From NCBI RefSeq assembly GCF_003967015.1, contig NZ_AP017560.1, positions 2,294,001 to 2,358,000 on the forward strand: a stretch of 64,000 nt of DNA, given 5' to 3'. Within the stretch, counting starts at the first letter, position 1, and every line of letters starts with the position of its first letter. Both the position numbers and the translations under genes were made by a program. The notes beneath the pieces are model-generated. The model was not told the DNA's origin. It did not search any database and was given only the letters and a program-made list of their open reading frames with translations. Of this stretch, positions 6,919 through 26,675 are shown piece by piece. The stretch comes from Pseudanabaena sp. ABRG5-3 (GTDB lineage: Bacteria; Cyanobacteriota; Cyanobacteriia; Pseudanabaenales; Pseudanabaenaceae).

Positions 6919-7870
6919 AGGTACTAAGCGGTTCTTTGATGAACTTAATATATAGATGTTTAAAGGTTGATCGTACTACTCTCGGTAACTCAAAATCGAT
7001 CGCCATCATGGTTGTAGGTAGTTGCCAGTCAGGGCTTTGTAACTGCGCGATCGGATCACCAACAATGTCAATGGCGCTCAAATCGCTGCATAGTCCTGTA
7101 CGAATCGAGGCAGCAACCGTTGGCACATCAAGGGGATTTACACCAAGAATCTCTACCATAACGCGATCGAGGGCAAAAACATCACGGGAAGCCGCTAAAA
7201 CTCCCAACTCTTTTGGCTCCCCAGCACTAGGTCCATTGCCCTCATGTCCAACAATGCCATCAATGATTGTGAGTTCAGGATTAATTGTGCGTGCTGTCTC
7301 AATCAACATTTGCGCGAAACGATTCACATCCTTACCTGCTTCCATATGCCACCAAGCCTTCATTTTCCCCGGTACACAACCAAAAAGATTTTTCACGCCG
7401 AGGGTAAGGGTGAGTTGCATATGCGATTTTACCTTGGGCAAATTGATCACCACATCCGCATCCATCGCTTCTTTACTGAGGCGGAGATTATGTAGTTCTC
7501 CTTCCCCCTCCGTTTCATAGCGTTTGCCATGAAACTCTACGATGGGAATTCCTAATTCTTCGGCAAGAGGTAATAACCCATTGGCTTTAGCAATTCCTTT
7601 GACGCTACCAAAGGCAGGGCTATCACCTAAAAATGGCTTACCACCAGCATCGATCACCATCTTGGCAACGCAATATACCAATTCAGGACGGGTAGTGCAT
7701 TCTTTGGTGGGACGTGAGCCTGTAAGTAAATTGGGCTTGAGGAGAACGCGATCGCCTGCTTTGACGATGCTGGACATACCTCCTAGGGGTGCAAGTACTG
7801 CCTCTAGCGACTGCATAAGCGATGCAATTTCATAGCTAGAGGTATGTAAGAGACTGACAATTGGTTTCAT
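6905..7870 (-). CDS. DUF362 domain protein
   Basis: 321-residue protein of the DUF362 family. The family core is clear: VLLKPNLLTGSRPTKECTTRPELV near the N-terminus, PFLGDSPAFGSVKGIAK, the segment DADVVINLPKVKSHMQLTLTLGVKNLFGCVPG, and the C-terminal IIDGIVGHEGNGPSAG with VFALDRVMVEILG. The function of the family is not settled; some members carry ferredoxin-type clusters, but this one has no Cys cluster. No signal peptide is seen. The response regulator gene begins inside its last codons, so the two proteins are expected to be made together. Confidence 0.88.
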   Translation of the reverse strand: MKPIVSLLHTSSYEIASLMQSLEAVLAPLGGMSSIVKAGDRVLLKPNLLTGSRPTKECTTRPELVYCVAKMVIDAGGKPFLGDSPAFGSVKGIAKANGLLPLAEELGIPIVEFHGKRYETEGEGELHNLRLSKEAMDADVVINLPKVKSHMQLTLTLGVKNLFGCVPGKMKAWWHMEAGKDVNRFAQMLIETARTINPELTIIDGIVGHEGNGPSAGEPKELGVLAASRDVFALDRVMVEILGVNPLDVPTVAASIRTGLCSDLSAIDIVGDPIAQLQSPDWQLPTTMMAIDFELPRVVRSTFKHLYIKFIKEPLSTYART

Positions 7871-7980
7871 GAATGTTTCTAGAAGGTGGTTGGTCAGCGA
7901 ATTGCTTAGAATTACTTAAAAATATAGCCTAAAACCCAGATTGTTATGATGCTTACTATTCTGGCATCACGATTTATATG

Positions 7981-8017
7981 GTAAGGATGGGCAGCGCGAA
8001 GCGCCGCCCATCCTTAC
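7981..8017. repeat. Hairpin 3' of the Fe-S membrane protein gene
   Basis: Stem GTAAGGATGGGC / GCCCATCCTTAC enclosing GCGC-GAA-GCGC. It resembles the other GGCGGCGCGAAGCGCCGCC cores in the window and lies 10 bp beyond the minus-strand stop at 8027. It may act as a terminator, although it has no strong T tract. Confidence 0.6.
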
Positions 8018-8026
8018 GATTGGTAT

Positions 8027-10795
8027 TTACTCTTTACTGAGTAGGGTTTTGAGACGACCACTCTCTAGTTCTAAGACCTTTAAGGCTAAACTGCGATCGC
8101 GATCCATAAGATCATCAAAAGTATCAACGGGAATCGCCAAAACTCTAGTTGGTGAAGATTTTGCCGTGATTGTACCTGTCAAATTGGTATGGGTTAAAAC
8201 TTCTAATTCATCCAAAACTTTCCCTGATACAAGATTTGAGATGGTTTCGGATTGATCAGCACGGATGATCCTAATTTCCACATTTCCCTCAATCAGCAGT
8301 AGCAACTCTCGACAAGTATCACCAGCCTCAGTAATATGTTCATTTTCTAGGTACGATTTGACATAGGCGCGATCGCTTAACTCGATCAAAATTTCATTGT
8401 CGAGAGAATGGAAAAAGTCACTATTGAATAGATATACCACCCGCTCTAATTTCTCAAAATTCGCCAAAGGCAAGGATTGCGTACTTTTGAGAATTAAGGT
8501 GATCATTTCTTGAACTAAGGGATGCTGACTTTCGATTTCAACCGCCGCAACTCGACTCGCCGCAAAGTCTAAAACCTGCAATAAATACAAGCTTACGGCT
8601 TGAATTAACGGGTTTGGTTCCTGTAACAGATCCGTTAGGGTATCAACTACCTCAGAAACAGCGATCGCCACTGAGCAAGCCATATTTTCTGAGGATAGTC
8701 TTAGTAAGTCGATCTGGTTTGATGGAATTTTTTGCAACCAAACAGAATTTGGTTCTTCGAGTATATCGCCCAAAACCGTAGGCGAAAGCTTACCCAAATT
8801 AGAGGCGATCTCATTGCCTTCAGAGGTATTGAGACTAGCGATCGCCTCTAGCAATGCTAATACCAAAATTCTCTTTTTACGGGAGATTGCCTCTAGTAAT
8901 AGGGAGACGGCAGGACGATATTCTAAGAGACAGGGTTGATTGAGGTTGTGGTAAGACTGCAATAGCTGGGCAAGGCGATCGAGATAAAAATAGGACTTTT
9001 GCTTTAGAGACGCATCGTGATCGAAATCTTGCGTAATTTCTTGTTCCTCCGTAGGCGTGATGTTATAAGTTTGAGCCAATTGCTGTGAGGCAGTATTAGC
9101 ATCTAAATTTTGGAGATAAACTAAGCGCTCAAGAGCCTTGCGATAGCCCGAGATGCGGACTAAGTTCTCAAGATTACGCTGGCGATTAGGGTCGAGGAGT
9201 TGGGGATCTTCTACACCTAACTCTTCGAGGAGACTGCGGTGTTCGGTATCAGAAATATCTAACTCTGTACGTAATTGCCTTAATAGTTCCAAGCTACTAG
9301 CAGAATTGGTATAACCCTCCTCCAAGGATTCACGCAAAACCCCTTTATAAGCTTCATAGCGCTTTTGTTTGGTAAATCCTGGTAACACCTTCGCCAACAC
9401 ATAGACCTCATGGGGATTGAGATCATCCACATCGCGATCGCTAAAGTATTGATTTAAAGGGAAGTTCATCTTCAATAATTGCTTGCGGAATCTACCTGCC
9501 AAGCCTTCCCTTGCATAGAGTTCAGGATCGCGTTTGAGGGTGTGAGCTAACCACAAAGTACTGACTAAAACGACAACTACATCAATGGTTTCTTGAAAAA
9601 AATTGGGCAATAGGCGAATAAAGGGACGACCACCAAAAATAAAAAATAGATTGAAAGCAATAAAGGTGCTGATACTAAATAAATGATGGCGAATCAATAA
9701 ATTAGAAGTTTTTTGTTTAGAGAAATTGAGGTAAGAGCGATAAAGACGTTCGCTGAGCGTACCAAAGATATAACCTAATCCTGTAAATAAGCCCAAGGTT
9801 AGCGGCACGGCTACAATTTTGGGAATAGGAATAGCTTGATTGTATAGATAAAATCCAGAGGACAGTAATTTTTGAATGGAGTTGCCCTCCATCGCCCAAG
9901 CCCCTGAAAAATAATAGTCCCAACTGCCTGCATAGAGATAGTAATAAAAGAAATAGCCCACTACTAATCCCAAATAGCAGTAATAAAGGAATTTAGTCTC
10001 AGGCTTCTCAATACCATCCCAATAGGATCGCTCTGAGTCGATGTCAATACAAGGATTTTGGCAAGCTACGCAGGCGCTTTGCTCTTTCCCATCATTGGTA
10101 ATCGTGCGACACATCGATTGGGTAATTGATACTTCGCTCATATGTGCCTTAGTCGCCAATAGAGCCGATGGTTCCGCATAGATTTTCTGCACAGGAGCCA
10201 TCGGACAGAAGTAATTACACCAAGTCTTACCGCCATAGAGATATCCGACAACGATAGCTGCGGCGATCGTCAGCAGTAGCCATAAACCGAGAGCGATCGC
10301 ATTGCCATTAATAAACAAGATCCGACTACATAGACCAATAAATAATAGTCCAAACTGAAGGTATAGATAGTTTTTGCCTAGCCAAGAATCCTTTTTTACT
10401 TTTGGAATTTCATAACGAACTTTCCCTGTTTTGCTATCAGTTCTTTTGATTTGTCTTTGCCATCCTAAAGCACGAGGAATTTGCGATAGGAAGGATAAAG
10501 GGCAAATCCGCCGCCATAGCTCATGCCCAAATACCAATAGGATAAAAATAGCGCTAGGTACAATTATGCCCCAAAATATTGGTGCACCAAGGGGATAGGG
10601 TTGCAATTCTAGACAAGTATTTTGAACAGAAATACAATCTTCGGGCTTGATGCGAAAAGGACTCCAAGTTTGACTTGGAGTTGTAATTAAAGGAGAAATC
10701 GGATCATAAAAGAGGGAAGCAATGAGAAGTAACCAAGCACAGGTTAATACCCAACGTACTTTTCGTATTTGCTGCTCAGATATGTTGTAAAGCAT
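8027..10795 (-). CDS. Polytopic Fe-S membrane protein with HEAT-like region and C-terminal cNMP-binding-like domain
   Basis: 922-residue fusion. Residues 1-420 hold about seven hydrophobic segments (near 13-30, 72-92, 143-160, 165-187, 268-290, 325-345 and 370-415). NapH/CcoG-like cysteine motifs are present: RRICPLSF (about 97), WCNYFCPM (about 192-199), and a ferredoxin-like set C229-x12-C242-VA-C245-QNP-C249. Residues about 420-790 are soluble, helical and HEAT/TerB-like. Residues about 795-915 have the cyclic-nucleotide-binding fold (GDTCRELLLLIEGNVEIRI, then LVSGKVLDELEVLT). The phosphate-binding cassette lacks the usual Arg (DELEVLTHTNLTGT), so nucleotide binding is doubtful. A membrane electron-transfer role is inferred. 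It is divergent from the bicarbonate operon with a 296 bp shared spacer. I know of no characterised protein with this layout. Confidence 0.85.
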   Translation of the reverse strand: MLYNISEQQIRKVRWVLTCAWLLLIASLFYDPISPLITTPSQTWSPFRIKPEDCISVQNTCLELQPYPLGAPIFWGIIVPSAIFILLVFGHELWRRICPLSFLSQIPRALGWQRQIKRTDSKTGKVRYEIPKVKKDSWLGKNYLYLQFGLLFIGLCSRILFINGNAIALGLWLLLTIAAAIVVGYLYGGKTWCNYFCPMAPVQKIYAEPSALLATKAHMSEVSITQSMCRTITNDGKEQSACVACQNPCIDIDSERSYWDGIEKPETKFLYYCYLGLVVGYFFYYYLYAGSWDYYFSGAWAMEGNSIQKLLSSGFYLYNQAIPIPKIVAVPLTLGLFTGLGYIFGTLSERLYRSYLNFSKQKTSNLLIRHHLFSISTFIAFNLFFIFGGRPFIRLLPNFFQETIDVVVVLVSTLWLAHTLKRDPELYAREGLAGRFRKQLLKMNFPLNQYFSDRDVDDLNPHEVYVLAKVLPGFTKQKRYEAYKGVLRESLEEGYTNSASSLELLRQLRTELDISDTEHRSLLEELGVEDPQLLDPNRQRNLENLVRISGYRKALERLVYLQNLDANTASQQLAQTYNITPTEEQEITQDFDHDASLKQKSYFYLDRLAQLLQSYHNLNQPCLLEYRPAVSLLLEAISRKKRILVLALLEAIASLNTSEGNEIASNLGKLSPTVLGDILEEPNSVWLQKIPSNQIDLLRLSSENMACSVAIAVSEVVDTLTDLLQEPNPLIQAVSLYLLQVLDFAASRVAAVEIESQHPLVQEMITLILKSTQSLPLANFEKLERVVYLFNSDFFHSLDNEILIELSDRAYVKSYLENEHITEAGDTCRELLLLIEGNVEIRIIRADQSETISNLVSGKVLDELEVLTHTNLTGTITAKSSPTRVLAIPVDTFDDLMDRDRSLALKVLELESGRLKTLLSKE

Positions 10796-20077: not shown

Positions 20078-21142
20078 ATGACGGGTGTGATAGATTTAAA
20101 GGCAAAATCTCCTCTTTATGTCGGTTTGCTATTTGGTGGACAGTCAGGTGAACATGATGTCTCCATCACATCGGCAAAAGCGATCGCCTCCGCCCTCAGT
20201 CAAAACTCACGTTACGAACTACAGCCATTTTATATTCAACGTGATGGCACATGGCGCAGTCCTGATATATCACGGCAGGTTTTAGAATCTGGCAAAGCCT
20301 TACAGGATTCAGAATTATTAACCAATGCTGCTTTTTTCTTGCCGACGGAAGTACAGCAAGTCGACCTCTGGTTTCCAGTCCTACATGGACCAAATGGCGA
20401 GGATGGTACATTACAGGGACTATTACAATTGATGCACAAGCCATACGTTGGTAACGGGGTGCTTGCCTCATCAGTGGGAATGGATAAGATCGCAATGAAG
20501 GCGATTTTTGCAAATGCTGGTTTGCCACAAGTCAAGTATGTAGCGCTAAATCGTTGGCAATGGCAACAGGATGAGCTAGCGTGGAGTGAGCATATTGAAG
20601 CTACTCTTGGTTATCCCTGCTTTGTGAAGCCTTCTAATCTTGGCTCATCGGTGGGGATTTCTAAGGTACGTGATCGCCAACAGCTAAAAGATGCGATCGC
20701 TAGTGCCACTAGCTATGATCCACGCATCATTATTGAGCAAGGCGTAACTGCTCGCGAGATCGAATGTGCTGTCCTTGGTAATGAGCAACCTCAAGCTTCG
20801 GCGATCGGTGAGATTACTTTCACAAGCGACTTCTATGACTACGAAACTAAGTACACCGCAGGTAAGGCGGATCTAATTATCCCTAGCAAGTTGCCAGATA
20901 ATGTGACTCAAGCAGTCCAGTCAATGGCAGTAAAAGCTTTTCAAACGGTAGCAGGTTCAGGTTTAGCTAGAGTCGATTTCTTCTATGTAGAAGCTACAGG
21001 AACTGTGTTAATCAATGAGATTAATACTTTCCCTGGATTTACTGCGCTGAGTATGTATCCCAAATTGTGGGAGTACTCTGGTATTCCTTTTACAGAATTA
21101 TGCGATCGGCTTGTAGAGTTGGCATTGGAGAAACATGCTTAA
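20078..21142 (+). CDS. ddl: D-alanine--D-alanine ligase
   Basis: Makes the D-Ala-D-Ala dipeptide for peptidoglycan, using ATP in the cytosol. 354 residues, ATP-grasp fold. Diagnostic segments are [21 protein letters not shown] (N-terminal binding loop), [54 protein letters not shown] (nucleotide loop), [18 protein letters not shown] and [22 protein letters not shown] with the metal-binding Glu/Asn. The Y in the omega loop (DYETKY) fits a D-Ala rather than D-Lac ligase. Monocistronic; a MITE-like element starts 18 bp after the stop. Confidence 0.96.
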
Positions 21143-21159
21143 AGAAGGATCTCTATTAG

Positions 21160-21301
21160 TAACTGATGTTAAGTGGAACTATCACTCCATCAGGCTATCT
21201 TTTACAGAGTAGGGGCGGGTTTAGCATATAGATCTTGCTTCAGCCCAGAATTATCAAGTAAACCCGCCCCTACTTTAGAAACTTCCACGTAACATCAGTT
21301 A
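21160..21301. mobile_element. MITE-like element with 19 bp terminal inverted repeats
   Basis: 142 bp element. The left end is TAACTGATGTTAAGTGGAA and the right end, read in reverse, is TAACTGATGTTACGTGGAA (one mismatch). Inside is the inverted pair AGTAGGGGCGGGTTT / AAACCCGCCCCTACT (21208-21274), which also occurs alone at 53155-53220. TTAG occurs just before the left end and at the right end, a possible target duplication. No coding capacity. Confidence 0.75.
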
Positions 21302-21574
21302 GCAGATATTCAACCCATTACCATTGAAAAAGAAAATGATTGCTCTTTAAGCATAGTTGAAAGTCTGCTAGCTGAAGAAAATCTATCGCCAGAGCAAGAA
21401 CAGATATTGCGTCTTCTGGTGACATTGATTGAAAAATTTGAAGAAGAACATTATCAGTTAGCAACTTCAACGCCTCATTCTATCTTGCTATATTTAATGG
21501 AAGAGAGAGGATTGAGACAGGCTGACCTTGTAGTGAAGTACGGGATTGTGACCCCGCCGAAGGTGGGGGCATAA
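21299..21574 (+). pseudogene. HigA-type antitoxin remnant, truncated at both ends
   Basis: In-frame translation gives LADIQPITIEKENDCSLS, VESLLAEENLSPEQEQI, LRLLVTLIEKFEEEHY and LYLMEERGLRQADLV. This is the N-terminal half of the HigA/HTH antitoxin family (core LVTLIEKFEEEHY then MEERGLRQADL). There is no start codon: an in-frame TAA at 21290 lies in the MITE end. The helix-turn-helix recognition part is lost where a second repeat begins at 21531, after which the frame runs through repeat sequence to a stop at 21572. No toxin gene remains nearby. A clear relic of a toxin-antitoxin locus. Confidence 0.75.
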
Positions 21575-21610
21575 TCCTGTGTAACTCTCTTGCTTGAAAA
21601 GCGCTATGTA
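21531..21610. repeat. Palindromic element, family E
   Basis: TAGTGAAGTACGGGATTGTG, an imperfect CCCCGCC-GAA-GGTGGGGG core, then CTTGCTTGAAAAGCGCTATGT. The same left and right sequences flank the hairpin at 48303-48376. This copy lacks the left terminal ATATAGCG seen there, so the antitoxin relic is joined to a truncated element. Confidence 0.7.
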
Positions 21611-21732
21611 TTGCCCGATGTTTGATTTGCTCAAAATGTTTGATTTTGTTGTAAATATATACATTGAGGCTATTGGCTTTTGACTACAATTAATATGTAT
21701 TACTAAAAATTAAAGAATAGGGGATTTCTATC

Positions 21733-22698
21733 ATCTCTAAGCGATCATTAAAAGCATCAGTAGCAGGTATCAAGCAAGCTAAAAAGCGGTTTGCTCAAAA
21801 AGGTTGGACTCAAGATTATCTTGCAGAGGAAGTGGGTGTCAAAACACGACAACCTATTTGGCGTTTTTTTGCAGGAAAGCCAGTCGATCGATACACATTT
21901 TTTGAAATTTGTGCAAGGCTAGACTTGAATTGGGAAGAGATTGTTGTCAAGGTGCTTTTAGAAGAAGAGGAATCTACTGATGACAAACTGAAAATCACTT
22001 CTCATGCCACTGATCTGGCTAGCATCTCTACAGTCTCTAGTATTCCTGTAGAAGTTGATAAACGACATTATGGACTGAATGAAAGTATCCACTATTATTG
22101 CGCTCAGCGATCTGCTGAAGTCTTAAAAAGAGATATTAAAGACTTGCGACTAATTACTTGTAATTTAGACAGTGGTTGTTCTCTTGCTGCCATTCATCAT
22201 GGTCAGATCATTGATACGGCTACTGGATTTACCCCTTTAGAAGGCTTGATGATTGACTATAGCTCTGGCTCAATTGATACTGATGTCTTAAATGAGATGA
22301 TGCGAAAGGACAATGACACTAGTGAGCCATCAAAGCGAGAAGTTGACAAAGAATCAAGTTTAGTTACTACTTCTGAGAAATCTGACAATCCAAAATCTGT
22401 GGGATCTGCGATTGATACAGATAATTCTAGAGCAAAACAAGCCTTGGATATTTACCTTCATCGTTTGCGATCTTGCCTTGGTTCCATGCTTATGAGTTTA
22501 GGTGGTATGGATGCGATCGTGTTTACATCGGAATTAAGCGAGAATTCGGAGATCGTCCGCGAACTTATTTGTCAATCCTTGGGATTTCTGGGTTTAAAAC
22601 TTGATTTAAAACAAAATCAAAACGATCCTCTAGATTTAGACATTGCCACAACTAATTCTAAAGTGCGCGTGTTGGTGATTAACCCCCAAGAGGTTTAA
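21733..22698 (+). CDS. Helix-turn-helix protein fused to a degenerate acetate kinase C-terminal domain
   Basis: 321 residues if initiated at ATC 21733. Residues 1-75 form a helix-turn-helix domain (SKRSLKASVAGIKQAKK, GWTQDYLAEEVGVKTRQ, RFFAGKPVDRYTFFEICARL), the type found at the N-termini of cyanobacterial NACHT/NB-ARC proteins. Residues about 110-320 follow the C-terminal half of AckA: LITCNLDSGCSLAAI, IIDTATGFTPLEGLM, ALDIYLHRL, GGMDAIVFTSELSENSEIVREL, VRVLVINPQE. AckA catalytic features are changed: the FHGTSH His is Asn (YGLNESIH), TRSGDID is YSSGSID (Arg lost), ITCHLGNG is ITCNLDSG, and GGIGEN is SELSEN. The AckA N-terminal half is missing and an acidic linker replaces a middle loop. 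It is probably a non-catalytic sensor or regulator. No ATG, GTG or TTG precedes 21832 in frame; GGGGA at 21720-21724 suits ATC 21733 (ATT 21724 is a weaker alternative). Confidence 0.75.
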   Translation: MSKRSLKASVAGIKQAKKRFAQKGWTQDYLAEEVGVKTRQPIWRFFAGKPVDRYTFFEICARLDLNWEEIVVKVLLEEEESTDDKLKITSHATDLASISTVSSIPVEVDKRHYGLNESIHYYCAQRSAEVLKRDIKDLRLITCNLDSGCSLAAIHHGQIIDTATGFTPLEGLMIDYSSGSIDTDVLNEMMRKDNDTSEPSKREVDKESSLVTTSEKSDNPKSVGSAIDTDNSRAKQALDIYLHRLRSCLGSMLMSLGGMDAIVFTSELSENSEIVRELICQSLGFLGLKLDLKQNQNDPLDLDIATTNSKVRVLVINPQEV

Positions 22699-22771: not shown

Positions 22772-23437
22772 ATGCCGTCTAAAGCCGTACAAACCATTGT
22801 TAAAGATAAATACAACGACAATTTTATAGATCGTCTGTTTATCTGGCTATTTTCTAGCAAGATGGCGAAGGCTCTAGGAAAAGGAACTGAAATCGAAGGC
22901 TATGCTGGCTTTGTTGATTTGTCAAAACAAATTATGCAGGGACGGAATGCTCAAGAGCAGCAAGTAATTGTCGCAAAAGTGTTGCAGTCTCTAGTGCCAT
23001 CACCAGCGCTCTGGGCAATTCGCACATTTTTCTCTCCCACAAGGTTGGTGTGCGTTCTTAATGCATGGTTTGCAGCACAAATGTTTGAGTGGTTGGTGGG
23101 ACCTTGCGAAGTTGCTGAAGCGGAGATTGATTTGGTAGATGGAACTGTGCGATCGCAACCTTCGGCTGTCCATATCAAAAAATGTCGTTATCTCGTCGAT
23201 AGTGGTTGCGTTGGCATGTGTGTCAATATGTGTAAAGTTCCTACTCAAACATTTTTTACAGAGGAATTTGGTATTCCCCTCACCATGACCCCCAACTTTG
23301 AAGATCTCAGTTGCAAAATGATTTTTGGTCAACTTCCTCCCGATCCAGAAGTAGATCCAGCCTATGAGCAATCATGTTTAGAGTATCAATGTCCAACAGC
23401 AAGTCTCGCCACAACTGCTTGTCCTAAACTGAGTTGA
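22772..23437 (+). CDS. D27-like (DUF4033) beta-carotene isomerase family protein
   Basis: 221-residue protein of the DWARF27 family. The diagnostic block is CRYLVDSGCVGMCVNMCKVPTQTFFTEEFGIPLTMTPNFEDLSCKMIFGQ (residues about 138-187), with the conserved Cys residues that in plant D27 relate to iron binding. The C-terminal CLEYQCPTASLATTACP adds further Cys. Plant D27 converts all-trans to 9-cis beta-carotene for strigolactone synthesis. Cyanobacterial members are presumed carotenoid isomerases or related enzymes; their role is not established. It begins 73 bp after the acetate-kinase-like gene on the same strand, so the two could share a transcript. A strong terminator follows at 23552. Confidence 0.85.
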   Translation: MPSKAVQTIVKDKYNDNFIDRLFIWLFSSKMAKALGKGTEIEGYAGFVDLSKQIMQGRNAQEQQVIVAKVLQSLVPSPALWAIRTFFSPTRLVCVLNAWFAAQMFEWLVGPCEVAEAEIDLVDGTVRSQPSAVHIKKCRYLVDSGCVGMCVNMCKVPTQTFFTEEFGIPLTMTPNFEDLSCKMIFGQLPPDPEVDPAYEQSCLEYQCPTASLATTACPKLS

Positions 23438-23611: not shown

Positions 23612-25528
23612 TTAAAGGGCCGCAGCCAACTTCAATTCGTTTGTTTCTAAAATTTGTTGCAGCTCTTCGGCATCAACGGTTTCACGCTCAACGAGATCCT
23701 TCGCGATTTTGTCAAGAACGTGACGGTTATCAACAAGCAGTTGCTTCGCACGACGGTAAGCATCGGCTACGAGAATGCCAACTTCTTCATCAATAGTTGC
23801 CGCAGTTTCTTCCGAGAAGTCACGCTCAGCAGCAATGTCACGACCAAGGAACATATTGCCATTAGAACGACCAAGGGCAACAGGTCCAAGCTTCTCACTC
23901 ATACCGAAACGCATCACCATTTGACGGGCGATCGCAGCAACTTGTTGGAGGTCACTGGATGCACCTGTGGTAACTTCTTCTTCACCAAAGACGATTTCTT
24001 CAGCGATACGTCCACCGAGTGCAACTGCCATCTGGTTCTGTAGGTAAGCACGGCTTTGCATTCTCTCTTCGGTAGGCAAGAACCATGTCAAACCACCAGC
24101 ACGGCCGCGAGGAATGATAGTCACCTTTTGGATGGCATCATAGTCAGGCATCAAAGCGCCAACGAGGGCATGACCTGCTTCATGGTAAGCAACTAATTCT
24201 TTGCGCTTTTCGCTCATAACGCGATCTTTCTTTTCAGGCCCCACCAAGACGCGATCAACAGCATCATTGATTTCGTCCATCGAGATTTCGGTCAAGTTAC
24301 GACGGGCAGCCAGAATCGCGGCTTCGTTCAACAGGTTAGATAAGTCAGCACCTGTGAATCCGGGGGTACGACGGGCAATCTTTTCCAGATCGACATCCTT
24401 TGATAGAGTCTTGCCGCGTGCATGGACTCCGAGGATTTCGAGACGACCTGCGAAGTCGGGACGATCAACAACCACTTGGCGATCGAAACGACCGGGACGT
24501 AGTAATGCGGCATCCAATACATCAGGACGGTTGGTTGCAGCAACGATGATGATACCTGTGTTGCCTTCAAAGCCATCCATTTCGGTGAGCAGTTGGTTCA
24601 AGGTTTGTTCACGCTCATCGTTACCACCACCGAGACCTGCGCCACGTTGACGACCGACGGCATCAATTTCATCGATAAATACGATACAAGGGGCATTGGC
24701 TTTGGCTTGCTCGAACAGGTCACGCACACGGGATGCACCGACACCGACGAACATTTCTACGAATTCTGAACCAGAAATACTGAAGAAAGGCACGCCAGCT
24801 TCACCAGCTACGGCACGCGCTAGTAGGGTTTTACCTGTTCCGGGAGGGCCAACGAGCAATACGCCTTTAGGAATCTTTGCGCCGACAGCGGTAAAGCGAT
24901 CGGGATTTTTGAGAAAGTCTACGACTTCGGTAAGTTCAAATTTAGCTTGCTCAATACCTGCGACATCGGTGAAGGTGACTTGGGTTTGAGGCTCCATCTG
25001 CACGCGAGCGCGAGACTTACCAAAATTCATGGCTTGGTTGCCAGGACCTGCTTGGGCGCGACGTAGTAGGAAAAATAAGCCGACTAAAAGCAAAATTGGC
25101 AAAATCAAGCTACTCAAGGTTTGAATCAATGCGCCATCGGTACGACGGGGAGCTACATCTAATTCAACATTGTTTTCTCTGAGGGTTTTGATGAATTCAG
25201 GGTCGTTAGGCAAGTTGACGCGAACTTTGCGCTTACCTTCAGGTCCCCCAGGTACGGTTGCTTCGGCAAAGGTGCGATCGGGACTAAGGGTAACTCTAGA
25301 AACGCCTGCGGGTTTCTTTCTGACTTCTTCGAGTAGTTTGCTATAGCGCCATTCCCCTTGAGTGGCGGGCTGACTATCGAGCAGGGTTGTCCCTAAGGTA
25401 ATGACGACAATGCCAAGCAGTGCGTATAAACCAAAATTTTTCCACTTTTTATTATTATTGTCGTTTTTATTATTGCTTTTCACTACTACTGCTCCATCAA
25501 TAGAGATGTTCTTAGTTGATTTTGCCAA
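23612..25528 (-). CDS. ftsH: ATP-dependent zinc metalloprotease FtsH
   Basis: Membrane-anchored AAA+ protease that removes damaged membrane proteins, in cyanobacteria notably photosystem II D1. 638 residues. The layout is a polar N-terminus, TM1 ([19 protein letters not shown]), a lumenal/periplasmic FtsH-ext domain, TM2 ([15 protein letters not shown]), then the AAA domain with Walker A GPPGTGKT, Walker [13 protein letters not shown], pore loop MFVGVG and SRH ([20 protein letters not shown]). The zinc protease site is [13 protein letters not shown]. Four FtsH homologues are usual in cyanobacteria; I cannot say which this is. A truncated copy of its 5' end lies upstream at 26127. Confidence 0.96.
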
Positions 25529-26126: not shown

Positions 26127-26675
26127 CTACCTGACTAGAAAAATAAAAATAATCAGACTTAGTAAGAAAAACAAACTGACTAATAGTAAAACAGGCAAAA
26201 TAGGCAAAATTAACATGCTCAAGGTTTGCAATAATGAGCGTTCAGTGGAACGTAAAGCAACATCTAGCTCAATGTTATTTTCTCTAATAGTCTTAGTGAA
26301 ATCAGGGTCGTTAGGCAGATTTACATGAACTTTTTTCTTGCCTTCAGATCCATCAATTACTGTCACTTCTGCAAAAGAGCGATCGGAACTAATGCTAATT
26401 CTGGAGACACCTGTGGGTTTCTTCCTGATTTCTTCGATTAGCTTGCTATAGTTCCATTCCCCTTGAGTGTTTGGCTGTCTATTGAGGAGATTGCTATCGA
26501 GGAAATATGGTACTAGGGCAATTACGACAATGCAAAAGGTAATAAAGTCAATGACAAGTAGAGCGTATAAGCCAAATAATTTCCACTTTTTATTATTGTA
26601 GTTTTTATTATTGCTTTTCACTATTACCGTTCCGTCAATAAATTCGATAAAAATGTTCCTAAATGATTTTGTCAA
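26127..26675 (-). pseudogene. Truncated FtsH: N-terminal membrane region only
   Basis: 182 residues matching the first 160 residues of the FtsH encoded at 23612. Shared segments are VIVKSNNKN, KKWK-FGLYALL, TQGEWNYSKLIEEIRKKPTGVSRI, SDRSFAEVTV, GKKKVHVNLPNDPDF, RENNIELDVA and LILPILPVLLLVSLFFLL. The AAA and protease domains are absent; after TM2 the reading frame continues for only a dozen hydrophobic residues (SLIIFIFLVR). The sequence upstream also matches that of ftsH (ATTTTATTAACTAATCTTAACG in both), so gene start and promoter were duplicated together. It is either a decaying duplicate or a small membrane protein that could interact with FtsH. Confidence 0.8.

Follow-up and report, generated by a model that had tools for sequence, protein, structure and literature searches.

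A gene joining a helix-turn-helix domain to half an acetate kinase

The window analysed here is a stretch of 64,000 nucleotides from Pseudanabaena sp. ABRG5-3. On its forward strand, a frame that is open from stop to stop over 21721-22698 (325 codons before the stop) contains a fusion gene at 21733-22698, which encodes 321 residues counted from the putative start at 21733. The protein comprises, in order, an XRE-like helix-turn-helix (HTH) domain (residues 2-72), a linker (73-106) and lobe II of the acetate kinase AckA (107-321). An automatic ORF list begins the gene at GTG 21832 and thereby cuts the HTH domain. The features of the locus are the following:

21641-21665, + strand: 25-bp promoter box TGATTTTGTTGTAAATATATACATT, conserved upstream of the fusions and of some siblings with the same HTH
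21685-21690, + strand: TACAAT, candidate -10 element recognised by eye 19 nt past the box, at similar spacing in most of 14 orthologues
21719-21723, + strand: AGGGG, Shine-Dalgarno-like site 9 nt before the ATC; orthologues have a purine-rich site
21733-21735, + strand: ATC, putative non-AUG start codon, from comparison of 16 fusion genomes
21736-21948, + strand: XRE-like HTH domain, residues 2-72, a domain type common to NACHT-type proteins
21949-22050, + strand: variable linker, residues 73-106 (dN/dS about 0.58; 0 of 34 columns invariant)
22051-22695, + strand: non-catalytic acetate kinase lobe II, residues 107-321, from Pfam, fold match and alignment
22078-22080, + strand: Asn116, where AckA has its transition-state His; so in all 16 fusion genomes
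22261-22263, + strand: Ser177, where AckA has its substrate Arg; so in all 16 fusion genomes
22303-22398, + strand: stretch of the former adenosine loop (residues 191-222), now variable, with 1 of 32 columns invariant

Pfam Acetate_kinase (PF00871) matches the fusion at 2.9e-52, and only over model positions 153-386 of 392. In a predicted AlphaFold model of moderate confidence (mean pLDDT 66, pTM 0.50, weak in the linker and loops), the ASKHA fold of lobe II is present: residues 111-321 match 2iir_A with Z 19.6 (rmsd 2.8, 180 aligned). This best match covers chain residues 174-387 of the acetate kinase, so that the two-lobe architecture of the enzyme is lacking in the fusion. A first-pass annotation of this DNA had read the gene as an HTH domain joined to the C-terminal half of AckA, with the N-terminal half gone and an ASKHA fold after residue 110, and the confined Pfam match and the fold comparison agree with it. 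A complete acetate kinase is also encoded in the same genome (G000:C1:239191).

The N-terminal domain is recognised by several weak signals that agree. Pfam HTH_3 gives an E-value of 0.056, which falls short of the Pfam cut-off, NCBIfam HipB gives 0.059, and a profile of the domain (A2) finds XRE-type HipB antitoxins in the PDB with an E-value of 0.0026. By fold comparison, residues 4-68 match chain 7o81_AU, presumably that of the HTH protein EDF1, over 62 residues. The Z of 8.4 is near a level that, by the tool's own description, small helical folds commonly reach, and of the 50 fold matches listed for the model one alone falls within the HTH. Together these signals identify an XRE-type HTH fold, and a single chain carries both an HTH and an ASKHA fold. 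No ROK domain is among the three Pfam families that match the fusion up to an E-value of 1, and the NACHT NTPase domain is absent from its Pfam matches.

Distribution and selection

Among the 58 genomes nearest by kinship, the fusion occurs in 15 of 26 from the genus (own genome included) and in one of nine other family members (G027). The other matches listed in those genomes are acetate kinases, one remnant and HTH domains of other proteins. No further fusion appeared in a 388-genome draw of the class at an E-value of 1e-55, with at most five candidates scored per genome. Eight named records (L033-L040) carry the fusion, several being the same genomes as those compared here under G handles: five are titled Pseudanabaena, one Phormidium tenue, and two are MAGs, one of Oscillatoriales and one of an uncultured cyanobacterium. 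None of 399 matching plasmid records covers 80% of the query (of the eight listed, seven are annotated as kinases and one is unannotated), and PADLOC gave no match.

The fusion is intact and without internal stops in all 16 genomes, which rules out a unique frameshift fusion and bears out the two-domain order proposed earlier. With saturated pairs excluded, each region was compared over 109-119 of 120 pairs (median dS 0.67-0.94). Median pairwise dN/dS came to 0.15 in the HTH, 0.10 in each of two parts of the lobe, 0.58 in the linker and 0.51 in the former adenosine loop. The low values for the HTH and the lobe indicate strong constraint on both domains, which are maintained as protein, with the linker and nucleotide loop much freer. 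In G022, a 5′-truncated remnant (L049, 9077-9562) holds the lobe part only, and a D27-like gene still follows it.

Origin of the two parts

This HTH domain also stands at the N-terminus of longer proteins of the genus, most of which measure 710-797 residues from stop to stop. In the own genome, the sibling of 771 residues contains NACHT (PF05729) and NCH2 (PF22727) by Pfam, in line with the earlier view that this type of domain precedes NACHT proteins in cyanobacteria. The HTH of the fusion is 63-68% identical to that of seven siblings that bear the promoter box. A near sibling of the domain is also present in 14 of the 16 fusion genomes, with none for G002 and G015 among the matches listed. 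Nine genomes of the genus have no fusion, remnant or close kinase; among the matches listed, four of these (G004, G006, G008 and G013) have a long HTH protein and G019 has a short one. A divergent relative of the domain (L176, 3-791, in G000) heads a protein with apparent pentapeptide repeats and, judging from this protein, the domain may be a portable N-terminal module.

In the tree, the fusion lobes fall into a single clade (100/100), with L019 of G010 as its sister (100/85); the remnant L020 was omitted from both alignment and tree. The housekeeping acetate kinases of the genus fall elsewhere, and descent from them is ruled out by the union with L019. L019, a complete acetate kinase, carries an EF-hand insert, and its gene adjoins that of a transaldolase with EF-hands. 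The fusion lobe, which is 45% identical to the resident AckA of its own genome, appears to derive from a second acetate kinase of this sort. In a tree from a short alignment that is poorly resolved, the fusion HTH domains also group as one clade among the sibling domains (97/97). A single fusion event would be the simplest account of both trees.

At L048 of G010 (7405-9977), the EF-hand insert lies in the N-terminal part of the acetate kinase, and directly upstream is the transaldolase with C-terminal EF-hands. By eye, these genes sit in a run that resembles carbohydrate metabolism. The EF-hand acetate kinase of G010 is possibly a calcium-responsive enzyme.

Loss of the active site

In 53 acetate kinase rows, which include five duplicate loci and leave out the very divergent L107, 100 positions of the lobe II half are invariant (95% or more). 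At least 15 of the 16 fusions keep 54 of these (L038 duplicates G007 in sequence; both enter only one alignment, of 17 rows). Eight AckA residues are each swapped for a single other residue in at least 15 of 16 fusions. In the numbering of the own AckA, these are His186 to Asn, Gly187 to Glu, His214 to Asn, Gly216 to Asp, Gly245 to Asp, Arg247 to Ser, Gly337 to Glu and Gly339 to Ser. The phosphate glycines are among them, with Gly216 and Gly337 replaced in 16 of 16 and Gly339 in 15. Lobe I, with the remaining substrate and metal site, is missing from the fusion. Because the replacements are so uniform, they point to a new settled state of the sequence and not to decay. We expect the fusion, as predicted from these residues, to have no acetate kinase activity.

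The first-pass annotation had described the catalytic His, the substrate Arg and the nucleotide loops as replaced, and the alignment confirms this, the adenosine-loop stretch being nearly as variable as the linker. It had also proposed that the kinase fold senses acetyl-phosphate, acetate or a nucleotide. Such sensing at the old site finds no support: a cleft that takes two lobes to form cannot do without the missing lobe I, the Arg, His and phosphate-loop glycines are replaced, and the adenosine loop has drifted, its dN/dS of about 0.51 comparing with about 0.10 elsewhere in the lobe. Given that the catalytic residues are replaced uniformly, ligand sensing at the old active site seems unlikely.

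According to PMC3475010, the Salmonella AckA dimer is held mainly by domain II (lobe II), and a citrate-binding pocket sits at the dimer interface. Since the body of this lobe is what the fusion retains, a role in assembly fits better than ligand sensing. We paired the pocket residues with fusion positions by hand. Matched by motif, Asp227 and Thr228 of the pocket presumably correspond to Asp161 and Thr162, which all 16 fusions retain; the presumed counterpart of Arg178 is His in all 16 and that of Met230 is Thr in 15.

A putative start codon other than AUG

The first-codon position reads ATC in ten of the fusion genomes, ATT in five and ATA in one (together, ATH); none of the 16 has ATG. In siblings with this HTH, the same position is ATG in all 20 near ones and in the next 13 more distant ones (L159-L171). 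The first-pass annotation was silent on the ATC that stands at 21733 in place of ATG, GTG or TTG. A purine-rich site lies 6-10 nt ahead of the ATH (GGAG in 13 genomes, AGGGG in the window and AGGAA in two). An in-frame stop occurs 5-6 codons upstream of the ATH in 11 of 16 fusions, and in six of those 11 (G015, G018, G017, G020, G021 and G027) the stretch from stop to start is free of ATG, GTG, TTG, CTG, ATT, ATC and ATA.

A start further upstream was rejected, as the stretch that runs from the last in-frame stop to the ATH is free of ATG, GTG and TTG in 14 of 16 genomes; the exceptions have distant candidates (in G014, ATG at codon -42 and TTG at -39; in G007, TTG from -40 upward). The internal GTG at 21832 was also rejected: four of 16 genomes (G015, G017, G020 and G027) contain no ATG, GTG or TTG in the first 60 codons. 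Codons 2-33, which this start would skip, are constrained (dN/dS 0.24). With ATH in 16 of 16 genomes, stops upstream and constrained codons downstream, initiation at AUC, AUU or AUA (AUH) is the best reading of these sequences. A hairpin that masks the start was discarded; it is weak in the own genome, and pairing between the Shine-Dalgarno site and the start is limited, by eye, to ATC copies with GGAGAT or GGGGAT.

In E. coli, infC and pcnB have AUU starts. The infC of the own genome gave no sign of a parallel rare start, as ATG stands at a fitting place in its frame. In Streptomyces, the GTC start of sigR is repressed by IF3 and well conserved across the genus (PMC5472188); as would be the case in the fusion, a rare start is kept genus-wide in a regulator gene. 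The fusion differs from all three in that it would use AUC, AUU or AUA, exchanged between species, and control by IF3 would be an additional possibility here. A trimmed or missed HTH domain is what would result from gene finders limited to ATG, GTG and TTG, as with GTG 21832 in the ORF list. The 16 AUC, AUU or AUA genes and their AUG relatives form a natural set in which non-AUG starts in cyanobacteria are directly testable.

A conserved promoter box

A counterpart of the box lies upstream of 14 of the 16 fusions, its core 69-182 bp before the start, though the neighbouring genes differ between lineages; the fusions of G018 and G009 have no box within 400 bp. The TACAAT element is missing from a promoter prediction list that also requires a -35 match. 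For a matrix built from the 14 fusions alone, the cut-off was 13.8, a score at the 99.9th percentile for random 250-bp stretches. The upstream regions of 8 of 20 near siblings exceed it. Of 20 more distant HTH genes none does; four of these (L174, L176, L177 and L178) have no start codon at the assumed place and so have shifted search regions. In a stricter test, five of the 20 siblings (L058, L066, L067, L068 and L075) beat all 30 shuffles of their own region. L056, L057 and L060 fail it, yet their sites stand at -105 or -106, the same place as in L058.

Searching 20 whole genomes with a pattern from both groups gave 32 matches with at most two mismatches, against 9 in a reversed control; this pattern was drawn after both gene groups had been seen, and the fusion-only matrix is the less biased test. 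Of the 32, 11 precede a fusion, judging by coordinates, and 7 precede a sibling with this HTH; these 18 include all seven exact matches. The remaining 14, compared with 9 in the control, look like chance, and a wider regulon was rejected. Downstream genes were inspected for 12 of the 14 (G003:C63 and G021:C2:655959 got no locus); one of the 12, a match with one mismatch in G013, lies where its contig ends, and no gene can be read beyond it. Another ten genomes, which lack the fusion, yielded six matches, all with two mismatches. In the own genome, a stricter pattern has one exact match, at the fusion gene, and 12 matches at three mismatches versus 13 in the control.

The promoter and the HTH were probably captured together, and their joint occurrence points to common descent and long retention of both. 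By inference, the box is a binding site of the HTH. Against this stands the helix segment TRQPIWRFF: among the 20 more distant HTH genes, in none of which the box was found, 9 share it exactly and another 4 almost exactly, so that box and HTH may be linked by descent only.

Relation to known systems and possible function

Like AckA, of the ASKHA superfamily, the fusion has the lobe II fold and 54 of the 100 family-invariant positions of that half; unlike AckA, it has no lobe I and carries other residues in place of the transition-state His, the substrate Arg and the phosphate glycines. NagC and other ROK repressors join a winged HTH to an ASKHA fold and are regulators made from a kinase scaffold. 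The parallel that was drawn with them earlier, of an HTH joined to a non-catalytic kinase fold in one chain, holds, and the ROK repressor 5f7q is among the fold matches (Z 8.4). The fusion departs from ROK proteins in its XRE-like HTH, single ASKHA lobe, acetate kinase ancestry, lack of a sugar site and match to Pfam Acetate_kinase. It shares its N-terminal domain with the cyanobacterial HTH-NACHT proteins and its box with 8 of 20 near siblings; in contrast to these siblings, which start with ATG, it has the kinase lobe in place of the NACHT NTPase and C-terminal part.

No description of the fusion was found among the literature listed for acetate kinase, ROK/ASKHA regulators and HTH-NACHT proteins in cyanobacteria, and it is not described where PMC7159879 deals with HTH and NACHT. 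Enzyme folds turned regulators are known from ROK proteins; a single dead acetate kinase lobe together with a genus-wide AUH start appears to be new. The case is a well-documented one of a single lobe of a central enzyme being kept as the non-catalytic part of a likely regulator, with the likely parental paralogue still recognisable, and suggests that half an enzyme was turned into a low-dose regulator.

In the account that we prefer, and whose chances we judge to be even, the protein is a scarce HTH regulator that uses its lobe for assembly and acts on its own gene, at a dose limited by the AUH start. The HTH and promoter of a NACHT-type gene would have been joined to lobe II of a second acetate kinase. 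Lobe II would have lost catalysis and ligand binding and been kept as an assembly surface, most likely the dimer contact of AckA lobe II. A dimer of lobes would set two HTH domains side by side, as XRE-type regulators need, and the protein would probably act on its own promoter at the conserved box. Initiation at AUC, AUU or AUA would keep the dose low and open to IF3 control. The protein could also repress in trans both its own promoter and those of the sibling NACHT genes through the shared box, dimerising by the dead lobe at an IF3-tunable AUH dose. We regard this as unlikely; if true, one half of a metabolic enzyme would have gone into a silencer of conflict systems.

Other readings assign the lobe or the HTH a different task. 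A repressor in which the HTH is switched by a ligand of the dead kinase fold, whether acetyl-phosphate, acetate, a nucleotide or another acid, would follow the ROK plan, and the citrate pocket at the AckA dimer interface (PMC3475010) offers a site of which Asp161 and Thr162 persist in all 16 fusions. However, the loss of lobe I, the replaced Arg, His and phosphate-loop glycines, the variable adenosine-loop stretch and the changes at the pocket itself, as matched by hand (Arg178 to His in 16 of 16, Met230 to Thr in 15 of 16), make this rather doubtful. The shared HTH might instead make protein contacts, with the fusion acting as an adaptor or brake that caps or recruits the sibling NACHT NTPases. 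The identity of 63-68% to seven box-bearing siblings and the near sibling in 14 of 16 fusion genomes, among the matches listed, are in keeping with this, but the domain resembles a classic XRE HTH, and HTH-domain proteins in genomes without the fusion (long in G004, G006, G008 and G013, short in G019) evidently do not need it; we hold this adaptor role to be improbable to a similar degree.

Lobe II is the dimer-forming lobe (PMC3475010), the own genome encodes a true AckA, and in G018 the two genes lie 2-3 kb apart; the fusion could pair with AckA as a subunit poison that alters its activity, the HTH being a stabilising head only. Against this, the fusion descends from another acetate kinase and is 45% identical to the resident one, such closeness was seen in G018 only, and the constraint on the HTH is left unexplained, so that we give this pairing little credence. 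That the gene is a decaying pseudogene or a chance open frame might be argued from the lack of a canonical start codon, the truncated remnant of G022 and the absence from other genomes, which show that loss is possible. Low dN/dS at a median dS of 0.67-0.94, frames without internal stops in 16 of 16 and conservation of the box and start region make this hardly credible.

Genomic neighbourhood

Directly 3′ of the fusion in the window is a D27-like gene (22772-23437, Pfam D27-like_C), an arrangement of one lineage of the genus. Such a gene follows in six compared loci (the window, L033, L034, L039, L049 and L055), of which five are one clade and one is the remnant. Beyond these cases, the neighbours differ between lineages among the loci listed; an operon logic was rejected, and no target gene is linked by neighbourhood. 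Close linkage of fusion and AckA genes was found in G018 only.

Upstream, at 21136-21575 of the window, lies a frame recognised by eye as a HigA-like antitoxin. An insertion with inverted ends, roughly 140 bp long, breaks it at about 21160-21300. The 3′ end of this frame is changed, and the sister genome G002 keeps an intact copy of 126 residues. Further downstream, a fragment at 26127-26675 resembles the N-terminus of the FtsH-like protein encoded at 23612-25528, identified as such by eye.
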